DNA of 37,320 bases, taken from Flavobacteriaceae bacterium. Its GTDB lineage: Bacteria; Bacteroidota; Bacteroidia; Flavobacteriales; Flavobacteriaceae. The notes below the pieces were generated by a model that had not been told where the DNA came from, searched no databases, and saw only the letters and a program-made list of their open reading frames with translations. The stretch is taken from the NCBI GenBank assembly GCA_002707745.1, contig PANU01000057.1, positions 1 through 37,320 on the forward strand. Direction: 5' to 3'. A program made the position numbers and the translations under genes. Of the stretch, positions 5,778 to 34,624 are shown piece after piece (positions within the stretch are counted from its first letter, which is position 1; every line of letters begins with the position of its first letter).

Positions 5778-8723
5778 TTACTTATTTACAAGCATTTTGT
5801 GGGTGGTTGTTGCACCATCAACTTCAATATTCACTAAATACATTCCTGTAGGTAATGAAATAGTAAGGGTATTTGTTCCCGGGATAAGAGTTGCATTTTT
5901 TACAACACGACCCGAAATAGACGTAATTTGATAGTTTATTCTTCCGGTTACAGATGCGGCAATTTCAATAGTAAACGTACCATTATTAGGGTTAGGATAT
6001 AAGGTGCTTATAGTATTTAATGTTGCATCATTTATTCCTAATACGCCTCCTCTTTCGTAGGCTCCTATATCACGAATATTAACGATAGAGAAGCTTCTCT
6101 GATCAGAAAAAGTATCGGTAGGGTCTCCAGCGTCTATTCCTGGGCTGCCTTCTAAAATTTCGTGAGTAAAGGTATCTCCTCCATTGTATTCCAGAGGGCC
6201 TAACAGCGGTGTTACTCCTTCTAAATCGTTTGCTACTTCCGGGAACGAATTTGTGTCGTCTATACCAATTAAATTGTAATCATTAGAGACAAATAATCCA
6301 TCTACATCGATACCTGCACCGGCTGCGTTATTGGCTATTATGGAATTTTTAACCTGGGTATTTGCAACTCCACTAATTCCACCACCATTAACTATGGCTG
6401 TATTTAACGTGATAGTTACAGCGTTTACAGTAGCCGTAGCATTATTTAAGAGGCCTCCACCATCTGTAGCAGCAGTATTTGCAGACAAGGTACTTCTGCT
6501 TAGGTCTAGTATTCCTGTGTCGTTTAAAATACCACCACCTGTAGCAGTTGTAGCATTATTACCAGAAAGTACACTTTGATCTATGTTGGTGTCTCCTCCA
6601 TTGTTATACACTCCTCCACCTCCGGCACCATTGGCGGTATTCCCGTCTACTGTGGTTCTGGTAATGTTCATTATAGTTCCGGCTTGGTTCCAAAGCCCCC
6701 CACCTTCATTCGCTGCACTATTTCCCTGAACAGTTGCTCTTGTAATATTAATGGTACTATTCATACCTGTTACGTGTAATCCGCCACCATTTCCTGGGTT
6801 TGCAGTACCGGCTAGATCATTTACATCGTTATTGATCATTTCTGAAGTGACAAAATCCAATGTTCCATCTACAATTTCGATAGCTCCTCCTGCTCTATTA
6901 GCAGCATTACCTTCAAAAGAGGTGTCGGTTATAGTAATGGCACCGTCAATACTTAATAATCCACCTCCAGAAGCCGAAATTCCTGTAGCTGTATTGTTAC
7001 TAATAACAGAATCGTCTGAAATATTTAACGTACCGCCATTATTAAAAACACCGGCTCCTCCATCGTGGGCTTCATCGCCTAAGGCTATGTTTCCATCAAT
7101 TTCACTATTGGTGATGGTCATAATTCCAACACTGTTCCAAAGGCCTCCACCTTCTTGTCCGGCAGTATTATCTGCTATTAAACTATCGTCTATAGTTATA
7201 TTTCCATCTCCAGAAATATGCAATCCTCCCCCGTTTCCTGGCGAGGTCATTGTTTCATTATTTGTAATTTCTACGTCTGTTAGAGTTACTTCAGAAGCTA
7301 CACCAGAGTTGTCTTCAATTCCTCCTCCTGCACGGTTAGAAGTGTTTCCATCTATTGTAGTGTTGTCTATAGAAAGAGTTGCACCTGCATCATTCAGAAT
7401 TCCACCTCCAGAACCTGAAGCGCCATCGGCAACGTTATTTGAAATAACCGTTTCGTCCGAAATTGTTACCGTACCGCTCAAGTTGTAGATTCCTCCACCA
7501 CCTTGATCAGCTTCGTCTCCACTTGCGGTGTTTCCGTCTATAGTTACCCCTTCAATAGTCATGAGTCCAGCCCCATTCCAGAGACCACCACCTTCGGCAC
7601 CTGCACTGTTTCCTGAAACTGTACCATTTACAATTTCTATCGTTCCATCGCCTGTAACATGTAATCCACCACCGTTTCCTGGTGCGTTCATGGTTTGGTT
7701 ATCACTTAGGGTAACATTGGTAAGGGTTACAGTTGTTCCCATTGCAGAATTGTCTTCAATTCCTCCTCCTGCTCTGTTGGAGGTATTTGCGTTAATTTCA
7801 GAATCTTCAATAGAAAGTGTAGCCCCGGTATCATTTAAAATTCCACCTCCAGAACCTGAAGTTCCGTCAGCCACATTATTCGAAATAACTGTTCCGTTTG
7901 TAATGGAAAGCATTCCACTTAAGTTGTAGATTCCTCCACCTCCTTGATCGGCTTCATCTCCGCTTGCGGTATTTCCATCAACGGTTGTACCATCTATGGT
8001 CATTTCTCCAGCGCCGTTCCAAAGTCCGCCCCCTTCGGCAGCAGCTACATTGTCATTTACAGTACCGTCTGTAATACTTACATCTCCTGGTCCTGTTACG
8101 TGCAAACCACCACCATTTCCAGGCATTGCGGTTGCAGGGGCTACTCCTGCATTATTGTTATCGAGATTTACATTGTTTAGGATTATATCCAGCCCTGCTC
8201 CAGAGTTATCTTCAATTCCTCCACCAGCGCGATTGGCCTGGTTTCCTGAAATTTCAGAATCTGAAACCGTGATACTACCTCCTGTATCTACAAAAATACC
8301 GCCACCTGAACCTGACGCTCCGTTAGCAGTACTGTTGCTAATTGTACTATTCATAATAGTAACGGCTGCATTTGTTATAAACAATGCTCCGCCATCTTCT
8401 GCAGTACCGTTTGTTATTGTAAGTCCATCCAAAGTTACGGGACCAGCCGTTATATTAAATATCCTGCTGTTGTTATCTGCATCTATGGTTACTCCTATTA
8501 AAGGACCAGTAATGCTAAGTTCTTTATCGATAACAATTTCGCTGGTAAGGTCTACATTAGTGACCAAAACTCCGAATGTAATTTCATCTCCAGCTGTTGC
8601 GTTTGCAATTTCATCTCGCAAAGAGCCAGGCCCACTATCATTTCCGTTTGTTACCTGGGCAAGTAATGGTGTGGTTAAGCACAATGCTACAAGCACAGTG
8701 ATCAATCTTGTAAAATTTTTCAT
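5778..8723 (-). CDS. Secreted polymorphic right-handed beta-helix repeat protein (choice-of-anchor Q-like) with T9SS sorting domain
   Basis: Signal peptide; repeated GGGI/GGGL...NNTA beta-helix rungs; IDAGDP...RDIGAYE motif; C-terminal LYPNPNNGTFTIEI...GMYLVNI. Confidence 0.88.
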   Translation of the reverse strand: MKNFTRLITVLVALCLTTPLLAQVTNGNDSGPGSLRDEIANATAGDEITFGVLVTNVDLTSEIVIDKELSITGPLIGVTIDADNNSRIFNITAGPVTLDGLTITNGTAEDGGALFITNAAVTIMNSTISNSTANGASGSGGGIFVDTGGSITVSDSEISGNQANRAGGGIEDNSGAGLDIILNNVNLDNNNAGVAPATAMPGNGGGLHVTGPGDVSITDGTVNDNVAAAEGGGLWNGAGEMTIDGTTVDGNTASGDEADQGGGGIYNLSGMLSITNGTVISNNVADGTSGSGGGILNDTGATLSIEDSEINANTSNRAGGGIEDNSAMGTTVTLTNVTLSDNQTMNAPGNGGGLHVTGDGTIEIVNGTVSGNSAGAEGGGLWNGAGLMTIEGVTIDGNTASGDEADQGGGGIYNLSGTVTISDETVISNNVADGASGSGGGILNDAGATLSIDNTTIDGNTSNRAGGGIEDNSGVASEVTLTDVEITNNETMTSPGNGGGLHISGDGNITIDDSLIADNTAGQEGGGLWNSVGIMTITNSEIDGNIALGDEAHDGGAGVFNNGGTLNISDDSVISNNTATGISASGGGLLSIDGAITITDTSFEGNAANRAGGAIEIVDGTLDFVTSEMINNDVNDLAGTANPGNGGGLHVTGMNSTINITRATVQGNSAANEGGGLWNQAGTIMNITRTTVDGNTANGAGGGGVYNNGGDTNIDQSVLSGNNATTATGGGILNDTGILDLSRSTLSANTAATDGGGLLNNATATVNAVTITLNTAIVNGGGISGVANTQVKNSIIANNAAGAGIDVDGLFVSNDYNLIGIDDTNSFPEVANDLEGVTPLLGPLEYNGGDTFTHEILEGSPGIDAGDPTDTFSDQRSFSIVNIRDIGAYERGGVLGINDATLNTISTLYPNPNNGTFTIEIAASVTGRINYQITSISGRVVKNATLIPGTNTLTISLPTGMYLVNIEVDGATTTHKMLVNK
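6354..8350 (-). repeat. In-gene tandem super-repeat, period 441/441/444 bp (147/147/148 aa)
   Basis: GNGGGLHVTG/ISG anchors have first-codon 5' ends (minus strand) at 8120, 7679, 7238 and 6794. Each unit carries EGGGLWN, GDEA(D/H), SGGG(I/L)L and NRAGG blocks. Outer limits approximate. Confidence 0.8.
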
Positions 8724-20543: not shown

Positions 20544-22367
20544 ATGCTAGACCAAAAACTATTACAAACGCTTAGCGAAAATTTAGAAAACGAACTTCCT
20601 ATAAACGAAGTCCTTCCAGAAGGGGGTAAACTTCATATTGATAAAATATTACCCTACATCTGTGTGTATCGGTACAAAAAAACTGACAGCTACTTTTCAG
20701 GTTTGCTAAAAACACAGGCATCGTATATTATTGTAAAGGACACGGTAGCTATTTCAGAATTAATAAAAACGCTTGCCATTGCCATTTCAAAAAAACTGAA
20801 TTCGTTTCTTATACTTGAAATGTGGCCCCTGCGAAAAAACCACGAAGCCGAGTTTGAGATCTCTTGCCCTGCAGGCAAAGCACCTGCAACCATTAAAGCC
20901 TTACAGGATGGCATTAATGAAATGCGCCTTATTTATCCTGAAGTTTCAGCAATAGTATCCGACACGCACAACAGACATCCCGACCGGCTGGAGCCACTGT
21001 TAAATCTGGACCAGACAAAAGAATCGGGAAGTTTAATTATTGGGTTGGCCGTTCCTACAATTTACCAAAGGCCAGAAGAAAACCAGATGTTTTCCATTTT
21101 TTATAGAAAATTTGCAACACATTTTTCAGAAATAATAAAACGCGCAGTATACGAATTTATAAGAGTACAAACATCCAATCCGTTTGCACATTACTTAATG
21201 CTTGGAAAAACAAATCTGGACCGGATTACCATGGAAGCAGACGAAGCCCTGGCTGAAATAAGCGAAGGAATGTCATTTTTAATGCGAACCACACCGGTAA
21301 ACAGTTCTCAGGAGTGGGAAAAATTTAAAGCCTCTAATTTTACCGAAAAACCAGCATTTAATTATAGGTTAGTTGCCCTGGATCCCGAGCAGCAAAAAAG
21401 AAAACTGTATAAAATTCCGTTGGAAAAAGTAGACGATCCAACCCTGGCCTATATCTTACGCGACAAACGGCTGGAAATTGAAAAACAACTTACTATGCTG
21501 GAAGAACGCGGAACCAATAGCTTTCGGTTTGTGGGGGAAAGTTTATACGGTGCTATTGAAGACAATGTACTGGTTGGAGCGCAGGAAATTTTAAAAACAT
21601 TTCCCGAAGGGGATAGCCCTTCCGAAAAAGAAAAATTTAGTTGTTACGACTTTGCCAAACACGCACAAAAAGAAATAGATTATTACCAGGAGAAATTTCC
21701 GCAGTTGCAATTATCCCTTGAAATAAGAAAAGATATTGCAGGCATCATGGTTTCTGAAACCAAGCTTTTAATAAGCAATCAAATAATGATGGATTCTCAA
21801 CGGTGCGACGCTTTAATACAACATGAGGTAGCTACCCATATTTTAACGTATTGCAACGGTAAAAAACAACCTATAAGGCAAATGTATGCAGGCTTTGCAG
21901 GCTACGATCAATTGCAGGAAGGTCTTGCTGTGCTAGCCGAATACCTGGTTAACGGACTTACAGTAAACAGACTGCGGTTACTGGCGGGACGTGTTATCGC
22001 TGCACATAGTCTGGTAATGGGGGCTTCTTTTATTGAAACATTTAACCTTTTAAAGAATTTCCATAGTTTCCCGGCACGTACCAGTTATTACATTAGCATG
22101 CGTATTTACAGGGGTGGCGGACTTATAAAAGACGCTGTTTATCTTGCTGGTTTAATGAATGTACTGGATTACATTAAAAAAGGTGGAAACTTAGAAACCT
22201 TATACGCTGGAAAATTTAACACCAACCATGTGCCGCTCATAGAAGAACTTATGCACCGGAACGTACTTAAAAAACCTGTTCTTCCAAGATTTTTGGAACG
22301 CGAAAACGTACAGGAACGTCTCAAAAACTTAAGAAACGGAATACAACTTACAGAATTACTTAACTAA
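20544..22367 (+). CDS. DUF1704 'QEGLA motif' protein; MATCAP-like putative zinc carboxypeptidase
   Basis: HEVATH (HExxxH, 21822-21839) followed by QEGLAVLAEYL (21915 onward); SMRIYRGGG; family-typical length. Confidence 0.87.
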   Translation: MLDQKLLQTLSENLENELPINEVLPEGGKLHIDKILPYICVYRYKKTDSYFSGLLKTQASYIIVKDTVAISELIKTLAIAISKKLNSFLILEMWPLRKNHEAEFEISCPAGKAPATIKALQDGINEMRLIYPEVSAIVSDTHNRHPDRLEPLLNLDQTKESGSLIIGLAVPTIYQRPEENQMFSIFYRKFATHFSEIIKRAVYEFIRVQTSNPFAHYLMLGKTNLDRITMEADEALAEISEGMSFLMRTTPVNSSQEWEKFKASNFTEKPAFNYRLVALDPEQQKRKLYKIPLEKVDDPTLAYILRDKRLEIEKQLTMLEERGTNSFRFVGESLYGAIEDNVLVGAQEILKTFPEGDSPSEKEKFSCYDFAKHAQKEIDYYQEKFPQLQLSLEIRKDIAGIMVSETKLLISNQIMMDSQRCDALIQHEVATHILTYCNGKKQPIRQMYAGFAGYDQLQEGLAVLAEYLVNGLTVNRLRLLAGRVIAAHSLVMGASFIETFNLLKNFHSFPARTSYYISMRIYRGGGLIKDAVYLAGLMNVLDYIKKGGNLETLYAGKFNTNHVPLIEELMHRNVLKKPVLPRFLERENVQERLKNLRNGIQLTELLN

Positions 22368-22377
22368 AGAAAAATAT

Positions 22378-23418
22378 ATGAAAATTGCTTTTATTATTAA
22401 CGATCACGCAACCGAAAAACCTAATTATACTACACCAGCATTAGGGTATGCGGCTTACAAACGAGACCATGAGGTCTATTTTATTGGGGTTGGAGAATTA
22501 GCATATGCTAGTGACGGTCATTTGTCTGCCCGTTGTAAAACAACTTCTGGAAAAAAATTTAAAACTCAGGAAACATATTTTAAGACAGTACAAAAAGAAA
22601 AATTTTCTAGAATCAGTTCGAAAGATTTAGATGTATTATTTCTTAGAAATGACCCCAGCGATGAAATTGGCGAGCGCGAATGGGCACAAAATGCTGCCTT
22701 TATTTTTGGTGAAATTGCTACACGGGATAATGTAATTGTACTAAACCATCCAAAAACACTGGCGAGCGCGGTAAACAAAATGTACTTTCAACATTTTCCT
22801 GAAATATTGCGCCCCAAAACGATTATTTCCAGGGATCACGAAGAAATTAGAGCCTTCTTTAAAGAGCAGAAACAAAAAATGATTTTAAAACCACTACAAG
22901 GCTCTGGCGGCACGAATGTTTTCATGATAGACAAAAAGAATGAACAGAACTTAACTCAAACTATAGATGCTATTAGCCGCGATGGCTACGTAATTGCACA
23001 AGAATACCTTCCGGATGCCAAAAATGGCGATACCCGATTATTTTTAATGAACGGAGAACCACTGGCGGTAGATGGAAAATATGCCATTATGCAACGTGTA
23101 AATGCAAAAGGTGAAATACGTAGTAATATACACGCAGGAGGAAAACCCCAAAAAGTAAAAATGACCGATCAAATTATGAAACTTGCAGAAATAGTACGCC
23201 CTAAATTAGTCCAAGATGGTATGTTTTTGGTAGGAATTGATATTGTTGGAGATAAGTTGATGGAAATAAATGTGTTTAGTCCCGGAGGATTAAATGTTAT
23301 GGGACAAATGTATGAAGCAGATTTTTCCACAGAAGTAATTAAGTCTATCGAAAAAAAGGTATACTATAATAAAACGTATGAAGATTACCTCTTCAATAGC
23401 CGCTTAGCCACTTTATAA
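22378..23418 (+). CDS. ATP-grasp glutathione synthetase-like ligase
   Basis: MKIAFIINDHATEKPNYTTPALGYAAYKRDHEV; KMILKPLQGSGGTNVFMI; AQEYLPDAKNGDTRLFLMNGEPL; MEINVFSPGGLNVM. Confidence 0.87.
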   Translation: MKIAFIINDHATEKPNYTTPALGYAAYKRDHEVYFIGVGELAYASDGHLSARCKTTSGKKFKTQETYFKTVQKEKFSRISSKDLDVLFLRNDPSDEIGEREWAQNAAFIFGEIATRDNVIVLNHPKTLASAVNKMYFQHFPEILRPKTIISRDHEEIRAFFKEQKQKMILKPLQGSGGTNVFMIDKKNEQNLTQTIDAISRDGYVIAQEYLPDAKNGDTRLFLMNGEPLAVDGKYAIMQRVNAKGEIRSNIHAGGKPQKVKMTDQIMKLAEIVRPKLVQDGMFLVGIDIVGDKLMEINVFSPGGLNVMGQMYEADFSTEVIKSIEKKVYYNKTYEDYLFNSRLATL

Positions 23419-23435
23419 AATAAAAACTGAAATTC

Positions 23436-24332
23436 ATGGCATTTTTAGATTATTATAAAATTTTAGGCATCAATCAAAACGCTACGGAACAGGAAATAAA
23501 AAAAGCCTACCGTAAACAAGCCAGGAAATACCATCCCGATGTAAACCCCAACGATCCCGAAGCGCAGCGGAAATTTCAAGAAATAAACGAAGCCAATGAG
23601 GTCCTGAGTAATCCGGAAAATCGTAAAAAATACGATCAATACGGAAAAGACTGGAAACATGCAGACGATATTGAACGCGCAAAACAACAACAGCAATACC
23701 AACGACAAGCAGGGCAACAGGATTTTGGCGGATTTGGCGGGGAGGCCTCAGGGTATTCCGATTTTTTTGAGTCTATGTTTGGAGGCGGTCGCGGCGGCTT
23801 TGGGCGTTCGGCACAATTTAAAGGCCAGGACTACAACGCCAGCCTGCAAATTAACCTGACCGATGTGTACACCTCCCAAAAGCAAACCCTGACTGTAAAC
23901 GGTAAAAATATCCGGCTCACAATTCCCGCAGGTGTGGAAGATGGTCAGACCATAAAAATAAAAGGCTATGGCGGCGAAGGTGTTGGCGGAGGTCCTAAAG
24001 GAGATCTTTACATTACCTTCAAAATTAATAACAATACCAAGTTTAAAAGAGATAAAGCCGATCTACACCATACGGTTACACTGGATCTGTACACGGCTGT
24101 TTTGGGCGGCGATATTACAGTGGACACCTTTAAAAGCAAAGTAAAACTAAAGGTAAAACCTGGCACCCAGAACAATACAAAGGTAAAATTGAAAGGTAAA
24201 GGCTTTCCAAAATATAAAAAAGAAGACACTTTTGGCGATTTTTATATTACCTATCAGGTAACCATTCCTGAAAAGCTTTCCGCTAAAGAAAAAGAATTAT
24301 TTGAAGAACTTGCTAAACTACAAACATCATGA
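23436..24332 (+). CDS. cbpA: DnaJ-family co-chaperone, CbpA-like
   Basis: J domain with HPD: DYYKILGINQNATEQEIKKAYRKQARKYHPDVNPNDPEAQ; G-rich linker; C-terminal DnaJ substrate domains; no zinc-finger region. Confidence 0.9.
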   Translation: MAFLDYYKILGINQNATEQEIKKAYRKQARKYHPDVNPNDPEAQRKFQEINEANEVLSNPENRKKYDQYGKDWKHADDIERAKQQQQYQRQAGQQDFGGFGGEASGYSDFFESMFGGGRGGFGRSAQFKGQDYNASLQINLTDVYTSQKQTLTVNGKNIRLTIPAGVEDGQTIKIKGYGGEGVGGGPKGDLYITFKINNNTKFKRDKADLHHTVTLDLYTAVLGGDITVDTFKSKVKLKVKPGTQNNTKVKLKGKGFPKYKKEDTFGDFYITYQVTIPEKLSAKEKELFEELAKLQTS

Positions 24333-24622
24333 GCACCACAGAATACATCACGGTAACCCATCTTTGTAGCCAATACAAAGTGACATCACAGTTGTTTCAG
24401 CAATTACACGAAACGGGGTTAATACAGGTTATAACTGTAGAAGAAGAGCCTTGCGTACATATAGAAACTGTCCATCAGGTAGATAAAATTATGCGGCTTC
24501 ACCAGGATTTGAACGTAAACCCTGAAGGAATTGACATTATCCTAAATCTCCTGGAGAAAATCGACACCCTGCAAACCGAGATGAACTCTCTGGAACGAAA
24601 GCTTCGGCTATATAAAGAATAA
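24329..24622 (+). CDS. cbpM: CbpA modulator CbpM-like protein
   Basis: MerR-like small protein overlapping the cbpA stop by 4 bp (ATGA); EYITVTHLCSQYKV...HQDLNVNPEGIDIILNLLEKI. Confidence 0.8.
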   Translation: MSTTEYITVTHLCSQYKVTSQLFQQLHETGLIQVITVEEEPCVHIETVHQVDKIMRLHQDLNVNPEGIDIILNLLEKIDTLQTEMNSLERKLRLYKE

Positions 24623-24626
24623 AAAC

Positions 24627-26219
24627 CTATAACGTTAACACGGTAAATTTTAAATCCAGGGGATCGAGTGTATCTTTTAAAGTTTGGAGTAAATCATCTC
24701 CATAAACGAGGTAATATTCAGAAAAATTGGTGTTGCGCTCCTGCAAACTCTGCTTTGGGAAGAGCCGGTCTTGTAGTGCTGTTAAGCGCGCTAACTGATC
24801 TGCTAGTTTTCTTTTTTGGGCTTTTAACAGTCTTTTTTCCAGGTTGTCCAAGCCATTTAATTGTTTCTTTTCCTGTGCTCCCACAGCTCCTACAAAAGAA
24901 GCATCGGTTTTTTTCGCTAACTCATACAAGTCTTTAAATTGCTGCTGCAAATGTTCCCGTTGGGGAGAAAGATCTATTTTTATTGCTGAAATTTGATGCG
25001 TAAAAGCTGTTCTTAAGTCGGTTTGCTTCTGGAATAACCGTTCCACCGAGACTTCCAGATTCTGAAGTTTTTCTGAAAGTTTTTCGGGCACCAACAACAC
25101 CGAGTTTCGCAATAAAAGTATTGGGAACGGCACCTCAACCGCTTCAAAGTACTCTTTTAACTGAAACCAATACGCCAGCTCACCGCCGCCGCCAACATAA
25201 CAAAGGTTTGGTAAAATCACTTCCTGATATAGGGGGCGTAACAAAGCATTGGGGGAGAAACGCTCGGGATGGGTTTGCAGTTCGTTGAAAATTTCATCCT
25301 TGGTGAATATAAGTTCGGTTTCGTTTACATAGAATTTTCCATCCCGTTCTATGATGCGCTCGCGAACACCTTCAGCCAAATAAAATAAATTGATTTCCCG
25401 CGGATGTACTTGTTCCCCGTAGCCCAAGTCCACTAGTTTTTCGGTAGTTTGAGTTACTTTTTTAAAGGATAGGTTTTCGATGAGTTCCTTTTCAGCATAC
25501 GGGATAAATTGTTTTTTAAGCTCCGCATCGTTTCCGTCTATGATTACCAGGCCGTATGCTTTAAACAGCTCATTCCCTAAATAGCGGGTGGCATCTGCCA
25601 GATTTTTATGTTTTGTATAAGCTTCGGTAAATAACTCCTGCAAGCGTTTTCCATTTTCACTCTCGCCAAAGGCTTTTGCAGTTTCTTTAGCGACCTCTGC
25701 TAACCCTTCTGTAGAAAATTCACCCACTGCCCCACCGTCCGGTCGTTCCCAAACCATCTTTTTTCCTTCAACATTAAAATAATTAATCTCCTCAAAATCG
25801 TGGTCTTCGGTTGCCATCCAGTATACGGGTACAAAATGGTTGGTAGGATATTCAGCAATCAGTTGTTCTGAAAGATTAATCACCGAAAAAATTTTATATA
25901 AAAAATACAATGGCCCGGTAAAAAGATTCAGTTGGTGGCCGGTGGTAATGGTAAACGTGTTTTCTTGTGAAAGGGATGCGATGTTCTTTTGAGTTGCTTC
26001 TGAAATTTCAAAACCTTCGTATTGTTTTTGAAGTTGATTCACTAAAGTTTGGCGGTCCAAATTGCGTACATTTCGACTCCGCTCAGTGTGCTCCTTAAAA
26101 TTTTGAAGTTTCGGAAACCTTCCGTAGAACTCTTTTAGTTCGGGTTTTTCAGCCAAATAATCACACATCAATTTGGAAAAATAGCCGGTTTCGCTGTACG
26201 GAATGGTAGATTTTGACAT
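24627..26219 (-). CDS. bshC: Bacillithiol biosynthesis cysteine-adding enzyme BshC
   Basis: TITTGHQLNLFTGPLYFLYKIFSVINLSEQL; FVPVYWMATEDHDFEEINYFN; LCYVGGGGELAYWFQLKEYFE; FVGAVGAQEKKQLNGLDNLEKRLLKAQKRK. ATG at 26219 preferred over 26243. Confidence 0.93.
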   Translation of the reverse strand: MSKSTIPYSETGYFSKLMCDYLAEKPELKEFYGRFPKLQNFKEHTERSRNVRNLDRQTLVNQLQKQYEGFEISEATQKNIASLSQENTFTITTGHQLNLFTGPLYFLYKIFSVINLSEQLIAEYPTNHFVPVYWMATEDHDFEEINYFNVEGKKMVWERPDGGAVGEFSTEGLAEVAKETAKAFGESENGKRLQELFTEAYTKHKNLADATRYLGNELFKAYGLVIIDGNDAELKKQFIPYAEKELIENLSFKKVTQTTEKLVDLGYGEQVHPREINLFYLAEGVRERIIERDGKFYVNETELIFTKDEIFNELQTHPERFSPNALLRPLYQEVILPNLCYVGGGGELAYWFQLKEYFEAVEVPFPILLLRNSVLLVPEKLSEKLQNLEVSVERLFQKQTDLRTAFTHQISAIKIDLSPQREHLQQQFKDLYELAKKTDASFVGAVGAQEKKQLNGLDNLEKRLLKAQKRKLADQLARLTALQDRLFPKQSLQERNTNFSEYYLVYGDDLLQTLKDTLDPLDLKFTVLTL

Positions 26220-26384
26220 AAAATTTTCAGAAGGTTTGTTCAAAAATACAGGATAATTAAGAATTCAGAATTTAGAATTTAGAATTTGTGAGAACTTTAA
26301 GTAGGTTTCATTATTTTAAAATTTCAGCATAGCCTGTTAAAAATGGAAAATCTAGTATCTTAGCGACCCTTAAACAACCATACC

Positions 26385-28874
26385 ATGTTGAAACACCTTA
26401 CGCTTACTTTTCTTTTTATTTCAGTAACACTTACTGCGCAACTACAATCTCCAGCCGATTTCCTGGGCTACGAAATAGGCACCCAATTTTCCCGTCATGC
26501 CGATGTGGTGCGTTATTTTGAACACGTAGCAGCCAATAGCGATATGGTAACCTACGATACCTACGGAAAAACATACGAGCGCAGACCCCTTACCTATGCA
26601 GTAGTTTCAACAGCGCAAAACATTGCAAATATTGAGCAGATTAGAAAAGATAATCTAAAAAACATAGGCCTGGAAAACGGTACTGCGAGTCCGCAAACCG
26701 CCATTGTCTGGCTAAGCTATAATGTACATGGAAACGAAGCGTCCAGCACCGAAGCTGCGATGAATACCCTCTACAAACTCATAACCGAAAAACAAGCCTG
26801 GTTGCAAAACACCGTAGTTATAATTGACCCTTGCGTAAACCCGGATGGGCGCGATCGCTACGCTAACTGGTACAATCAGGTAAAAGCTACGCCGTACAAT
26901 GCAAAACAGGCAGCCATAGAGCATAATGAGCCCTGGCCTGGAGGAAGACCCAACCATTATTTATTTGATCTCAACCGTGATTGGGCGTGGGCAACGCAGG
27001 TAGAAACACAGCAACGATTAGAAGTTTACAACCAATGGATGCCACATATTCACGTAGATTTTCACGAGCAGGGCATAAATGAGCCGTATTACTTTGCCCC
27101 GGCGGCAGAGCCTTACCATGAGATTATTAGTGAGTTTCAGCGCGATTTCCAGACTGAAATAGGTAAAAATCACGCCAGATATTTTGATGCCGAAGGGTGG
27201 TTATTTTTTACCCGAGAACGTTTCGATTTATTGTATCCCAGTTATGGCGACACCTACCCTACTTTTATGGGGGCTATTGGAATGACCTACGAACAAGCAG
27301 GCCACGGTAGAGCTGGACTAGGAATTAACACCGACGAAGGTTTTGAGTTAACATTGGTAGACCGGGTAGCGCACCACACCACCACAGGACTTTCTACTAT
27401 TGAAATGGGAAGTAAAAATGCTGTAAAACTAAATTCAGAGTTTAAAAAATTCTTTAAAAATGACAACCTTACCTATAAAAGCTACGTCTTAAAAGGACAT
27501 CCGGACAAACTGAATGCACTAGCCAAGTTACTGGATAAACACCAGATTACCTACGGAATAAAAAGCAACGGTACCGTAAATGGCTTTAGGTATGCTGAAA
27601 ATAAAAATGGTAAAATGGATGTCACCAACGCACTTTTGGTAAGTACCAACCAGCCAAAAGGAAAAATGGTCAAGGTGTTGATGGAACCCAACGCAGTACT
27701 AACCGAACCGTTAACCTACGATATTACCGCATGGAGCATCCCACATGCGTACGGGCTGGAAGCAGTGGCTTCTACCGGTTTTGTTGCAGTAGATAAAGAA
27801 ATGTCGGCTTTAAAAACAACAAATACAGCTTCTCCGAACTCAGCTGGATACCTTGTTTCCTGGAATAGCATGTACGATGCACAGTTTTTAGCCGAGCTAT
27901 TGCAAAACGATATTCGCGTACGCTTTTCTGAAAAAGATCTTAAATTTAATGACAAAGATTTCGGTAAAGGAACCCTTGTCATTACCAAAAGTGATAATAA
28001 AACAAATGACCATTTCAACGAAAAAGTAGTTGAAATCGCCAACAAGCACAACCGACAATTATATGCATCCAACACCAGCTTTGGAGATACCAGAACCGAT
28101 TTTGGGTCGCCAGACATAAAATTAATTAACAACCAGCGCATTGCTGTTTTACGTGGCAATGGCGTTTCTTCGTTAAACTATGGCGCTATCTGGCATTTCT
28201 TTGAACAACAACTTAACTACCCTATTACTTCAATTGATACGGGCGATTTTAAAGCAGCTACGCTCCATAGTTTTGATGTGTTGGTTCTGCCTAGTGGTTG
28301 GTATTCCAGTTTAAAAGGTGATACTATGGATGCTGTGAAAACCTGGGTACAACGCGGGGGAAAAATTATAGCCATTGGGAGTGCCATAAACAGCTTTACA
28401 GACCTGGATGGTTTTGATCTTAAAAACAATGTTTCAACAGATACAACGAACGACACCGGGGAAACCAATAAAAGTGAAGGAAACCTTACTCCCTACGATC
28501 AACGCGAACGTACCCATGTAAAAAATCTTATTACAGGAAGTATTTATAAAGTAAAAATAGACCCCAGCCACCCAATGGCTTTTGGATATAGTGATACGTA
28601 TTATAGCTTAAAATTAGGGAGTGCTTCGTATTCATTTTTAGAAAACGGCTACAACGTTGGGTATATTGAAACTCCAATGTCGGTAGCTGGATTTTCTGGG
28701 GAAGACGCCAAAAATAAACTTACAAATTCATTGGTTTTTGGAGAAGCAAGAGTAGGCAGTGGTAGCGTTATCTATATGGTAGACGATGTACTATTTAGAA
28801 GCTTCTGGGAAAACGGAAAGCTGTTTTTTGTGAACGCACTGTTTTTTGTAAATAATAATAAGTTTACGTTGTAG
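26385..28874 (+). CDS. M14-family zinc carboxypeptidase (secreted)
   Basis: Signal peptide; YNVHGNEASSTEAAMNTLY; DPCVNPDGRDRYANWYN; DLNRDWAW; HVDFHEQG. Confidence 0.9.
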   Translation: MLKHLTLTFLFISVTLTAQLQSPADFLGYEIGTQFSRHADVVRYFEHVAANSDMVTYDTYGKTYERRPLTYAVVSTAQNIANIEQIRKDNLKNIGLENGTASPQTAIVWLSYNVHGNEASSTEAAMNTLYKLITEKQAWLQNTVVIIDPCVNPDGRDRYANWYNQVKATPYNAKQAAIEHNEPWPGGRPNHYLFDLNRDWAWATQVETQQRLEVYNQWMPHIHVDFHEQGINEPYYFAPAAEPYHEIISEFQRDFQTEIGKNHARYFDAEGWLFFTRERFDLLYPSYGDTYPTFMGAIGMTYEQAGHGRAGLGINTDEGFELTLVDRVAHHTTTGLSTIEMGSKNAVKLNSEFKKFFKNDNLTYKSYVLKGHPDKLNALAKLLDKHQITYGIKSNGTVNGFRYAENKNGKMDVTNALLVSTNQPKGKMVKVLMEPNAVLTEPLTYDITAWSIPHAYGLEAVASTGFVAVDKEMSALKTTNTASPNSAGYLVSWNSMYDAQFLAELLQNDIRVRFSEKDLKFNDKDFGKGTLVITKSDNKTNDHFNEKVVEIANKHNRQLYASNTSFGDTRTDFGSPDIKLINNQRIAVLRGNGVSSLNYGAIWHFFEQQLNYPITSIDTGDFKAATLHSFDVLVLPSGWYSSLKGDTMDAVKTWVQRGGKIIAIGSAINSFTDLDGFDLKNNVSTDTTNDTGETNKSEGNLTPYDQRERTHVKNLITGSIYKVKIDPSHPMAFGYSDTYYSLKLGSASYSFLENGYNVGYIETPMSVAGFSGEDAKNKLTNSLVFGEARVGSGSVIYMVDDVLFRSFWENGKLFFVNALFFVNNNKFTL

Positions 28875-29246: not shown

Positions 29247-32200
29247 ATGAAAAGAATATTAGGATTGGATTTGGGCACCACCTCAATAGGTTGGGCATTT
29301 GTTAATGAAGCAGAAAACGAGACAGAGATGTCATTTATAGTGAAAACAGGTGTTCGAGTGGTTCCACTTTCAACAGATGAACAAATTAGTTTTGAAAAAG
29401 GACAGAGTATTACTATTAATGCAGATCGAACTTTAAAAAGGGGAATGCGAAGAAACCTGCATCGCTATAAAATGAGAAGGGCTGCCGTGATCGACACTTT
29501 AAAGTCTATTGGTTTTATTACAGATGAAACGCCACTTTCTGAAAACGGAAATGATACACACAGCACATATAAGTTGCGAGCGAAAGCAGTATCAGAAAAG
29601 TTGTCCAAACAAGATTTCGCTCGTGTTCTTTTAATGATAAATAAAAAACGAGGTTATAAAAGCAGTAGAAAAGCAAAAAACCAAGAAGAGGGACAACTTA
29701 TTGACGGTATGGCAGTTGCGAAACGCCTTGAAAATGAAAAGCTATTACCTGGGCAACTTTCATTTATTTTATTAAATGAAGGTAAAAAAATGCTACCAAC
29801 TTATTACAGGTCAGATTTGCAAAATGAGTTTAATGCTATATGGGACTTTCAAAAACAATTTTATGAGGAACACTTGACTGAAAAACATAAAGAAGCTCTT
29901 GAAGGTCTAAACAAAACAGCAACAGGACAGTATTTTGAAAAGACTATTAAAACTCAGAGAGCAGAGAACAAAGGGAAAAACAAAAAGCTGCAAGAGTATG
30001 AATGGCGGAACAAGGCAATAACAGAGCAACTTACCTTACCGCAAGTAGCATATATTTTAACTGAAATAAACAATCAAATCAATCAGTCAAGTGGTTATTT
30101 GGGTGCTATAAGCGACCGTAGTAAAGAGTTGTGTTTTAATGATCTTACTGTTGGACAATTTCAATACAACCAACTAAAACAAAACCCCCTTGCATCCTTA
30201 AAAAATCAAGTTTTTTATAGACAGGACTATATGGATGAATTTGATGCTATCTGGAAAGAACAATCGAAACATTATTCAGAATTAAATAAGAAAATTAAAG
30301 ATAAACTTAGAAACATTACGATTTTTTACCAGCGCAAGCTAAAATCACAAAAGGGACTTATAAACATTTGTGAACTAGAAGGTGTGGAACGCAAAGTAAT
30401 GACAGATGGAGAGCTAAAGAAAAAGCTAATAGGCCCAAGGGTTGCGCCTAAATCTTCACCTGTTTTTCAGCACTCTAAAATTTGGCAAAATATCAATAAT
30501 ATTATTTTAAAAAACGAAAAGACAAAAGAAATTGTTGAATTAGGTGAAGATTTAAGGGAATTGCTGTTTCAGTATCTTAATTGGAAAGATAATATTTCGG
30601 CAAGCCAGCTCATAAATTTTTTAATAAAAAATTCAGATATACCAAAAGGAAAGTGGAAAGTAAATCTTGAAAAGGTAGAAGGTAATAGTACCAATGCTGT
30701 ACTATTAAGTGTTTATGAAAAAATTACTGAAATTGAAGGGTATGATAAACTCAAATTCAGTAACCCCAATGAAGAACTCATTAAAAGTTTAAAGGTTTGC
30801 TTTACTGAAATAGGAGTTGAACCACAAATCCTGGAAATGGATTATACTTTAACGGGTAATGATTTTAGCAAACAACCGGCTTACGAGTTGTGGCATTTGT
30901 TATATTCTTATGAAGATGATTGCTCAATAACGGGAACAGAAAGCCTAGAACAAAAACTACAAGAAAACTTCGGCTTTAAAAAGGAGCACGCCAAATTACT
31001 TGTAGGTGTCAACTTTCAACAGGATTATGGAAATTTAAGTGTGCGGGCATTACGTAAAATATATCCCTATTTAGAGGAAGGCAAAGTTTATAGTGAGGCG
31101 TGTGCTTTGGCGGGATACAATCACTCCAAGTCCTTAACTGCCGAAGAAAACAACAAGAGAATATTACTTGATAAATTAGAGCTTTTAAAGAAAAATTCAC
31201 TACGAAACCCCGTGGTCGAAAAGATTCTAAACCAAATGATACACGTGGTAAATGCTGTGATTGAGAATCCAGAAATGGGTAAACCCGATGAAATTAGAGT
31301 CGAACTTGCAAGAGAACTCAAAAAGACAGCAAAGCAAAGAAATGAATTGATCAAGGTAATTACCAAAGCTACCACAGACCATATCGCATTTAGAGATAAA
31401 ATCAAAAAGGAATTTGGCTTACCCTATGTTAGTAGAAAAGATTTAATAAAATACAAATTATATCTCGAGTTAAAATCCAATGGATTTCGTACACTCTATT
31501 CTAACACTTACATAAAACCTGAAGAGCTTTTTACCAAGAAATTTGATGTAGAACACATAATCCCACAATCAGTATTATTTGATGATTCGTTTTCCAACAA
31601 AACCTTAGAATTGAGAGATGTAAACCTCGAAAAAGGAAATGAGACCGCTATTGAATATTGCAGACGTAAAGGTTGGGGAGATGATTTTAAATCTCGAACT
31701 GATGAAATTTTTAAAGCTAATGGCATAAAATACGGAAAGCGCAAAAAACTGTTGATGACCAAGACAGAAATTCCCGAAGGCTTTTTAAATCGGGATTTGG
31801 GAAATACCGCATATATTTCTCGCAAAGCAACTGAAATACTGCAACAATTAACGAGAAAAAAAGTGGTCTCCACATCTGGGAAGATTACTAGTAAACTGCG
31901 TAGCGATTGGGAACTTATAAACGTTTTACAAGAACTCAATTGGGATAAATACGAAGTCTTAGGACTTACATATTATGATTATAATAAAGAAGGAAAGGCA
32001 TTGGCAAGGATAAAAGATTGGACTAAAAGAAATGATCATCGCCACCATGCTATGGATGCAATCGCCGTTGCATTTACAAAGCCTGCTTTTATTCAATATT
32101 TAAACAATATGCACGCTAAAAGTGAAAAAGCAGGAGATATATATGGCATAGAAAAAAAATACACCTATCGAGATAAGGAAGGTGGGCGTAAATTTCACAA

Positions 32201-33353
32201 ACCTTTTGAGAACATAAGAGAAGAATCAAAAAACCACTTAGCTTCTATTTTAGTTTCCCACAAAGCAAAAAACAAAGTGGTAACTCGCAATAAAAATAAG
32301 ATTAAGATAAAGGGTAACAATAGTTTCAAGACTAAAACTGAACTCACACCAAGAGGGCAACTTCATAAAGAAACCATCTATGGAAAATCATTTTACCCAG
32401 AAGTAAAAGAAGAAAAAATAAACGGTTCTTTTTCAAAAGAAAAAATAAAAACAGTTACAAAACCAATTTATCGAGAAGCACTTTTAAAACGACTTTCAGA
32501 AAATAACCATGATGCCAAAAAGGCATTTACTGGAAAAAATTCATTGACCAAAAACCCCATTTTTATTAATGAAAAAACAAACGTACCTGACAAAGTAAAA
32601 ACGCAACAACTGCAACATCAATTTACAATACGAAAGGTAATTACCCCAGACCTTAAAATTGATAAAGTAACAGATGAAGGCATTAAAAGAATACTGGAGG
32701 AACGTCTAAAAGAATACAACGGCAAGAAAAAAGCAGCCTTTTCAAATTTAGATGAAAACCCCATTTGGCTCAATAAAGAAAAAGGTATTTCAATTAAACG
32801 AGTTACAATTTCGGGAGTCAGCAATGCAGAACCACTCCATATTGCCAAAGACCATTTGGGTAATGATGTCTTGGATGAAAAAGGCAATACAGTTCCCACG
32901 GATTATGTGAGCACTGGGAATAATCATCACGTTGCTATTTATAAAGACGAGAAAGGAAATTTGCAAGAAGAGGTTGTTTCCTTTTATGAAGCTGTCATAA
33001 GAAAAAACAATGGTTTGCCAATTGTTGAAAAAAATCATCCCAAGGGTTGGGAATTTCTTTTCACTTTAAAACAAAATGAAATGTTTGTCTTCCCAAATGA
33101 AGATTTTGACCCTTTAAATATAGATTTATATGATGATGCAAATAGAGAGTTAATCAGTAGAAATCTATTTAGAGTTCAGAAAATAGGTTCAAAAGATTAT
33201 TGGTTCAGGCGTCATTTAGAAACCACATTAGTTACCACTAAAGAATTAAATGAAGTCGTTTATCATAGAAAGCGTAATCCTAATTCGATTAGTAAAATCA
33301 TCAAAGTTAGACTAAATCATATAGGCGAAATAGTGCAAATAGGAGAATATTAA
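29247..33353 (+). CDS. cas9: CRISPR-associated endonuclease Cas9, type II-C (1368 aa)
   Basis: RuvC-I ILGLDLGTTSIGWA; bridge helix NADRTLKRGMRRNLHRYKMRR; RuvC-II IRVELARELK; HNH FDVEHIIPQSVLFDDSFSNKTL...NLEKGNETA; RuvC-III NDHRHHAMDAIAVA. Flanked by cas1, cas2, array and tracrRNA. Confidence 0.98.
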   Translation: MKRILGLDLGTTSIGWAFVNEAENETEMSFIVKTGVRVVPLSTDEQISFEKGQSITINADRTLKRGMRRNLHRYKMRRAAVIDTLKSIGFITDETPLSENGNDTHSTYKLRAKAVSEKLSKQDFARVLLMINKKRGYKSSRKAKNQEEGQLIDGMAVAKRLENEKLLPGQLSFILLNEGKKMLPTYYRSDLQNEFNAIWDFQKQFYEEHLTEKHKEALEGLNKTATGQYFEKTIKTQRAENKGKNKKLQEYEWRNKAITEQLTLPQVAYILTEINNQINQSSGYLGAISDRSKELCFNDLTVGQFQYNQLKQNPLASLKNQVFYRQDYMDEFDAIWKEQSKHYSELNKKIKDKLRNITIFYQRKLKSQKGLINICELEGVERKVMTDGELKKKLIGPRVAPKSSPVFQHSKIWQNINNIILKNEKTKEIVELGEDLRELLFQYLNWKDNISASQLINFLIKNSDIPKGKWKVNLEKVEGNSTNAVLLSVYEKITEIEGYDKLKFSNPNEELIKSLKVCFTEIGVEPQILEMDYTLTGNDFSKQPAYELWHLLYSYEDDCSITGTESLEQKLQENFGFKKEHAKLLVGVNFQQDYGNLSVRALRKIYPYLEEGKVYSEACALAGYNHSKSLTAEENNKRILLDKLELLKKNSLRNPVVEKILNQMIHVVNAVIENPEMGKPDEIRVELARELKKTAKQRNELIKVITKATTDHIAFRDKIKKEFGLPYVSRKDLIKYKLYLELKSNGFRTLYSNTYIKPEELFTKKFDVEHIIPQSVLFDDSFSNKTLELRDVNLEKGNETAIEYCRRKGWGDDFKSRTDEIFKANGIKYGKRKKLLMTKTEIPEGFLNRDLGNTAYISRKATEILQQLTRKKVVSTSGKITSKLRSDWELINVLQELNWDKYEVLGLTYYDYNKEGKALARIKDWTKRNDHRHHAMDAIAVAFTKPAFIQYLNNMHAKSEKAGDIYGIEKKYTYRDKEGGRKFHKPFENIREESKNHLASILVSHKAKNKVVTRNKNKIKIKGNNSFKTKTELTPRGQLHKETIYGKSFYPEVKEEKINGSFSKEKIKTVTKPIYREALLKRLSENNHDAKKAFTGKNSLTKNPIFINEKTNVPDKVKTQQLQHQFTIRKVITPDLKIDKVTDEGIKRILEERLKEYNGKKKAAFSNLDENPIWLNKEKGISIKRVTISGVSNAEPLHIAKDHLGNDVLDEKGNTVPTDYVSTGNNHHVAIYKDEKGNLQEEVVSFYEAVIRKNNGLPIVEKNHPKGWEFLFTLKQNEMFVFPNEDFDPLNIDLYDDANRELISRNLFRVQKIGSKDYWFRRHLETTLVTTKELNEVVYHRKRNPNSISKIIKVRLNHIGEIVQIGEY

Positions 33354-33357
33354 AGTC

Positions 33358-34624
<1,267 letters not shown>

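Follow-up and report, generated by a model that had tools for sequence, protein, structure and literature searches.

The window, a stretch of 37,320 nucleotides from a Flavobacteriaceae bacterium, carries on its forward strand two closely spaced genes, one for a putative metallopeptidase and one for an ATP-grasp ligase. The first gene (20544 to 22367, forward strand) is a single open reading frame encoding a long-form metallopeptidase of 607 amino acids that belongs to PF08014 (E = 6e-94), a Pfam family now named MATCAP and earlier DUF1704/QEGLA. The protein scored 315 bits against a cut-off of 27 and covered profile positions 1 to 362 of 365, with the catalytic domain spanning amino acids 259 to 598 (21318 to 22337, forward). 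Sequence reading and alignments placed the HExxxH metal-binding motif, HEVATH, at residues 427 to 432 (21822 to 21839, forward), and His 427, Glu 428 and His 432 were invariant in the alignments (A3–A5). The QEGLA motif is found at residues 458 to 462 (21915 to 21929, forward), where Glu 459 is the putative third metal ligand. In an alignment, QEG (458–460) corresponds to the EEG motif of human TMCP1, whose role has been reported (PMC10499314). An earlier note on this DNA had pointed out an HExxxH sequence with a downstream EGLA glutamate in this reading frame, and both are indeed present within a full PF08014 domain.

A search of the PDB with the family profile retrieved a single protein, human KIAA0895L/MATCAP (7z5g/7z5h/7z6s; E = 9e-17). 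Structure prediction, which had been proposed as a check of the MATCAP fold, agreed with this, as the top fold match of the AlphaFold model was 7z5g (E = 3e-8, probability 1.0, TM 0.68 by target length). The score of the protein against TIGR02421, the flavohemoglobin expression-modulating QEGLA protein, was 324.6, below the cut-off of 338.65. We therefore rejected a flavohemoglobin function, which is a database label and had already been doubted in the earlier note. No measured activity of any bacterial MATCAP member was found in the searchable literature. Reading of the sequences gave no evident signal peptide in either the peptidase or the ligase, and the pair therefore probably acts in the cytosol.

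The first ∼220 amino acids of the peptidase had no match in Pfam. However, comparison of a profile of 16 N-terminal domains from long MATCAP proteins with one of 90 N-formylglutamate amidohydrolase-like proteins (FGases) encoded beside MATCAP genes gave a probability of 78% (E = 1.8e-5) over 197 collinear columns. The region of approximately residues 1 to 222 (20544 to 21209, forward) is thus probably a degenerate FGase. The AlphaFold model is of low confidence over most of residues 28 to 222, a region absent from the underlying alignment, and so it is the profile–profile match that carries this assignment. His 44, His 47, Asp 87, Glu 91, Asp 93, Asp 153, His 155 and Glu 234 are kept in at least 95% of the FGases, whereas the N-terminal domain of the long MATCAP proteins contains no conserved His, Asp or Glu, and all putative metal-site residues of the FGases are gone. 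This part of the protein is therefore a likely FGase homologue that looks like a dead remnant. True FGase–MATCAP fusions were found in two other families of the order (L021, L033) and in Photobacterium sp. GJ3 (L125). Taken together with the profile match and the missing residues, this suggests that the long MATCAP form is a former FGase–MATCAP fusion whose first activity was lost. The earlier note, correct on the motifs, had overlooked this homology.

Ten bases downstream of the peptidase gene, as described earlier, lies the gene for a 346-amino acid ligase of the glutathione synthetase (GSH-S) type (22378 to 23418, forward; PF02955, E = 2e-54; PF02951, E = 7e-11), with its ATP-grasp catalytic domain (PF02955) at 22774 to 23301 (forward). 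The protein is annotated as ‘glutathione synthetase’ and falls in the NF009110 (PRK12458) subfamily of that name, scoring 449 bits against a cut-off of 408, and the ligases adjoining MATCAP in Rhizobiales and Photobacterium also scored above this cut-off. The score against the RimK family TIGR00768 was 78.8, below the cut-off of 143.4. In a fold search with the predicted structure, E. coli GshB (1gsa) ranked first (E = 1e-21, TM 0.79/0.87), followed by RimK, both free and RpsF-bound, so that the fold is of the GshB type. Asp 288, Glu 296, Asn 298, Arg 240, Arg 248 and Asn 250 were invariant in 24 homologues. The window ligase therefore resembles GshB in its Pfam domains, its fold, and conserved acidic/Asn and Arg residues of the kind that serve ATP-grasp catalysis, but it differs from GshB in its C-terminal motif (SPGG(L/I) instead of SPTC), in its co-inheritance with MATCAP, and in scoring below the equivalog cut-offs.

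The ligase gene is followed after 17 bases by the start of a DnaJ/CbpA-like co-chaperone gene (23436 to 24332, forward), and then by a gene for a CbpM-like MerR_2 protein (24329 to 24622, forward) that belongs to the context of the DnaJ gene. A DnaJ gene follows the pair in three of the four guaA/bshC-type loci of one set and is absent from three further loci. We considered the DnaJ and CbpM genes as members of the module and rejected them owing to their absence from L024 and L143–L145; they are probably context that lies outside the core. Elsewhere in the window, an open reading frame of 1368 amino acids resembling Cas9 is directly followed by one of 304 amino acids resembling Cas1 (29247 to 34272), which reads as a type II CRISPR-Cas locus. 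An 829-amino acid protein (26385 to 28874) begins with a signal peptide-like stretch and looks, on reading, like a secreted zinc carboxypeptidase of the M14 kind. Segments resembling a parallel beta-helix recur in a secreted protein of 981 amino acids (5778 to 8723), which has a sorting-type tail at its C-terminus.

Across 151 Flavobacteriaceae genomes, the ligase was present in 79 of the 84 genomes with MATCAP and in none of the 67 without it (Fisher p = 2e-37, calculated genome by genome and ignoring phylogeny). Within this set, 90 of 98 MATCAP genes had a ligase gene no more than about 5 kb away, and 92 of 94 ligase genes adjoined MATCAP. A comparison of 60 relatives showed a strong GSH-S-type ligase in all 24 genomes with MATCAP and in none of the other 36, where the best GSH-S match reached 82 bits and was of the RimK type. 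The pair was also found in Rhizobiales and Photobacterium, and on plasmids that appeared in both protein searches the two matches were adjacent. The pair is also present on pSymB of Sinorhizobium meliloti 1021 (L123). For Vibrio vulnificus, a published list of clade-2-specific genes includes both VV2_1203 (COG3930) and VV2_1204 (‘glutathione synthetase’) (PMC3091676). Co-occurrence of the two families, on which the earlier note had made its proposal depend, is thus conserved.

The source genome is an assembly of 111 contigs with a total of 2.76 Mb and a completeness of 82%. Each of its three MATCAP genes has one of its three strong GSH-S-type ligases as a neighbour. In the window (type B), a long MATCAP gene precedes the ligase gene; type A (L004) has the order ligase, FGase and short MATCAP, and type C (L005) has long MATCAP, ligase and AstE/AspA. 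The same architectures were seen across all loci of the family that were fetched, and rhizobial plasmids have the order FGase, long MATCAP and ligase. The gap between MATCAP and ligase genes had a median of 3.5 bases (16 loci). Most modules share a third enzyme, an M14-like N-acyl-amino-acid hydrolase of either the FGase (PF05013) or the AstE/AspA (PF24827) kind. No such gene adjoins the window pair, but nearly every other module has one. Both of these families hydrolyse N-acyl-Glu/Asp and small N-acyl amino acids. A PF00375 symporter gene of the dicarboxylate/glutamate type usually lies just upstream of type-A modules. The two-gene system of the earlier note was therefore right about the pairing but had overlooked the hydrolase. 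What is new here is the module of GSH-S-type ligase, MATCAP and M14-like hydrolase, since pairs of ligase and peptidase already have a precedent in RimK/RimB.

Some type-A modules (L014, L017, L023, L029) have a two-domain rhodanese gene between ligase and FGase, a possible link to sulfur. Two loci showed related enzymes without MATCAP. In L141 (6276 to 9677), three genes form an operon: one for a hydrolase resembling AstE/DoeB, one for a GSH-S-type ligase that has diverged (115 bits), and one for a 475-amino acid protein that has no NCBIfam match and, on reading, resembles another ATP-grasp ligase. In L140 (6905 to 7948), a type-A ligase gene has a large NRPS-like gene and a membrane protein gene in its vicinity. 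No conserved precursor peptide was found near the modules, the largest cluster of small open reading frames (11 loci) being antisense near the ligase start, and a graspetide/RiPP cluster was rejected, as no small reading frame is conserved across modules. The viral contigs scanned contained no relatives of the module.

Maximum-likelihood trees of MATCAP and of the ligase showed a common deep split, with type A and the fused forms on one side, and type C together with a group of type B and Rhizobiales on the other. The window type was sister to Rhizobiales in both trees (support 100/97 for MATCAP and 95/100 for the ligase). In three genomes (L031, L138, L139), a window-type MATCAP and ligase were found as a unit at a type-A locus, beside a type-A FGase, in the position of the type-A MATCAP. 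The conserved pairing is therefore borne out by adjacency across phyla, deep congruence of the trees and relocation as a pair.

Among the 80 best loci, 11 had a type-A MATCAP gene directly after the symporter gene with no ligase or FGase there. Nine of these 11 genomes (L045, L046, L063, L068, L070, L071, L073, L076, L093) had no strong GSH-S-type ligase anywhere, and the catalytic motif was intact in all nine. MATCAP without a GSH-S-type ligase was seen in five genomes of the 151-genome set, which may overlap with the nine. Solitary genes with an intact motif directly follow a dicarboxylate-type symporter gene in Muricauda, Arenibacter, Maribacter, Croceivirga and Galbibacter. In Salinimicrobium (L025/L112) the MATCAP motif was lost, and a type-C module is present elsewhere in the genome. 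Two gammaproteobacterial members are also solitary (L124, L126), and a solitary gene in Pseudoalteromonas adjoins bet and ast genes. A ligase loss in L066, suggested by the calling of reading frames, was ruled out by tblastn. The retention of MATCAP without a ligase in some lineages indicates that the peptidase does not strictly require this partner.

A RimB–RimK fusion, judged by an open frame of about 460 amino acids and read as sequence in L128, L129 and L131, was present in all nine ligase-less genomes. It was also found in five of the five ligase-less genomes of the 151-genome set, compared to nine of the 79 paired genomes (p = 6e-5). This correlation ignores kinship and was noticed after the fact, and we therefore treat it as a lead only. 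In the source genome, a stand-alone RimB-like gene lies between two genes of the RimK type (contig C90, 4626 to 6415), so that the known poly-Glu writer and eraser coexists with the MATCAP modules.

The annotation of the ligase as a glutathione synthetase was not supported. Its scores fell below both GshB equivalog cut-offs (NF003573, 224.9 against 272; TIGR01380, 213 against 299). A search of the 24 genomes with MATCAP found type-I gamma-glutamylcysteine synthetase (PF04262) in none and GCS2 in only four. GCS2 was likewise not found in any of five genomes of the genus, where four near-complete congeners agree with the 82% complete source genome. On the reverse strand of the window, beside the pair, lies a gene for BshC, the cysteine-adding enzyme of bacillithiol synthesis (24627 to 26243; TIGR03998, 475 bits, cut-off 265.8). 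Contig C99 begins with a truncated match to BshA, which runs off the contig end (205.7 bits over positions 216–374, below the full-length cut-off). These two matches suggest that the low-molecular-weight thiol of this bacterium is likely to be bacillithiol and not glutathione. Given the missed cut-offs, the failure to find gshA families in the genus and the adjoining bshC, glutathione synthesis by the window ligase is unlikely, as the earlier note had argued. In Photobacterium damselae, 1% compared to 3% NaCl raised ‘GshB’ 38-fold, QEGLA 27.5-fold and RimK 52-fold, and the ‘GshB’ and QEGLA genes carry consecutive locus tags, adjacency being judged from the tag numbers (PMC10308900). The authors of that study take the induced ‘GshB’ to be a glutathione synthetase (PMC10308900), but the induction may concern the module described here.

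Since the two enzymes are inherited together, MATCAP and the ligase probably build and dismantle the same peptide, which is not glutathione. We favour a conserved cycle in which ligase, MATCAP and M14-like hydrolase make and break an acidic N-acyl peptide, and give this reading a probability of about 0.5. The ligase would activate a carboxylate with ATP and join to it an amine (an amino acid), MATCAP would take the same residue off again at the free C-terminus, and the M14-like hydrolase, whose gene lies either inside the module or at another place in the genome, would split the remaining N-acyl acidic amino acid. The substrate would most likely be an N-acyl peptide containing Glu or Asp, and we slightly prefer a small free peptide to a protein tail. 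Underlying this proposal are the genes present, their preserved active-site motifs and folds, their joint inheritance and deep co-divergence, and the lack of detected gshA families. We infer from these that both enzymes act on one bond and that the substrate is acidic and small. An acidic peptide is the simplest common reading of the trimming of tails by MATCAP relatives, the chemistry of the FGase and AstE/AspA families and the symporter of type-A modules. However, a ligase and a hydrolase of one operon may serve successive and not opposite steps, the ligase-less genomes (nine and five, with possible overlap) show that the peptidase can act apart, and the window module has no adjoining M14-like gene.

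A doubtful though possible alternative is that one particular protein is the target, its C-terminus being extended by the ligase with one or a few residues (Glu, Tyr or others) and trimmed back by MATCAP. The characterised MATCAP relatives do work on protein tails (PMC10499314), RimK/RimB provide a precedent (PMC11957791; PMC12239564), TTL and MATCAP act in this way on tubulin, and RimK is the second-best fold match of the ligase. The presence of the RimB–RimK fusion in every ligase-less MATCAP genome examined (9/9 and 5/5, possibly overlapping) and the induction of RimK together with the pair in P. damselae (PMC10308900) point in the same direction. However, the ligase is nearest to GshB, a small-molecule enzyme, and not to RimK or TTL, its hydrolase partners come from families whose substrates are small N-acyl amino acids, the correlation with the fusion is post hoc and blind to phylogeny, and the neighbourhood contains no conserved target gene. 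Less likely still is a catabolic or salvage route, in which MATCAP and the M14-like enzyme would digest an imported acidic peptide and the ligase would make a storage or detoxified conjugate, with no opposed cycle. The intact solitary MATCAP genes next to symporter genes and the one beside bet and ast genes would fit such a route, but the near-perfect inheritance of the ligase with MATCAP and their joint relocation suggest direct coupling.

Thiol metabolism, with the ligase as a true glutathione synthetase or acting on a glutathione-like or bacillithiol-derived thiol that the peptidase degrades, appears very unlikely to us. E. coli GshB is the best match of the ligase in sequence and in fold, the ligase of Photobacterium scores above one of the GshB cut-offs (284.6 against 272), some modules include the rhodanese gene, and bshC adjoins window-type loci. 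Nevertheless, the window ligase lies under both cut-offs, gamma-glutamylcysteine synthetase families are lacking or rare in the MATCAP genomes, and the adjacency of bshC represents a single vertically inherited locus. That the genes are neighbours by chance or position alone, with no shared function, is hardly credible: although each locus taken by itself is largely syntenic in Flavobacteriaceae, the pair occupies three distinct genomic positions and occurs in two phyla, and its co-occurrence and relocation already contradict this explanation.

The proposed cycle of ligase, MATCAP and hydrolase can be compared with several known systems. The window peptidase shares PF08014, the HExxxH motif with the EG glutamate, and the fold with the eukaryotic tubulin metallocarboxypeptidases MATCAP/TMCP1 (KIAA0895L) and TMCP2 (KIAA0895), but it has ∼19% identity in the structural match, a different N-terminal region, an adjoining ligase gene and no identified tubulin partner. 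Human and Tetrahymena MATCAP/TMCP enzymes trim the C-terminal residues of acidic tails and shorten poly-Glu chains, and the published survey of the family covers eukaryotes only (PMC10499314). RimK/RimB, including the RimB–RimK fusion, which act on poly-Glu of ribosomal protein S6, likewise link a bacterial ATP-grasp ligase to a peptidase and form a characterised pair of the writer/eraser type (PMC11957791; PMC12239564). MATCAP and its ligase share the genetic linkage and co-inheritance of such a pair. However, RimB is a retropepsin-like aspartic protease, RimK belongs to another ATP-grasp subfamily, and the source genome has both kinds. RloA/RloC of Pseudomonas aeruginosa are also an ATP-grasp and peptidase operon, with a hypo-osmotic phenotype (PMC12239564). 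They differ from the module in having a secreted aspartic peptidase and a transmembrane, transglutaminase-like third part. The N-acetyl-aspartyl-glutamate cycle of animals employs the ATP-grasp synthetases RIMKLA/B, glutamate carboxypeptidase II and aspartoacylase. All three chemistries match those of the module, but the peptidase families are unrelated and the module ligase is nearer to GshB, so that the resemblance is an analogy only. Judging by its title, a 2009 study by Iyer et al. (10.1039/b917682a), cited in PMC12239564, surveys the gene neighbourhoods of amidoligases, ATP-grasp enzymes among them, that serve the synthesis of metabolites or the peptide modification of proteins.

The starting point was a puzzle of annotation: a large bacterial family bears the name of a human tubulin enzyme, and its neighbour is labelled ‘glutathione synthetase’ in genomes that yielded no gamma-glutamylcysteine synthetase. 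These results turn the puzzle into a three-enzyme module that can be tested, and they bear on the origin of the tubulin-tail peptidases. A bolder and, in our estimate, improbable version is a bacterial C-terminal tail code, in which ligase, MATCAP and M14-like hydrolase would add residues to a cytosolic protein and take them off again. Such a code would have three enzyme classes in common with the eukaryotic tubulin code (TTL/TTLL, MATCAP and CCP), and, if it were true, the enzyme that reverses tubulin tyrosination would have its ancestry in bacteria, in a system that was already coupled to a ligase.
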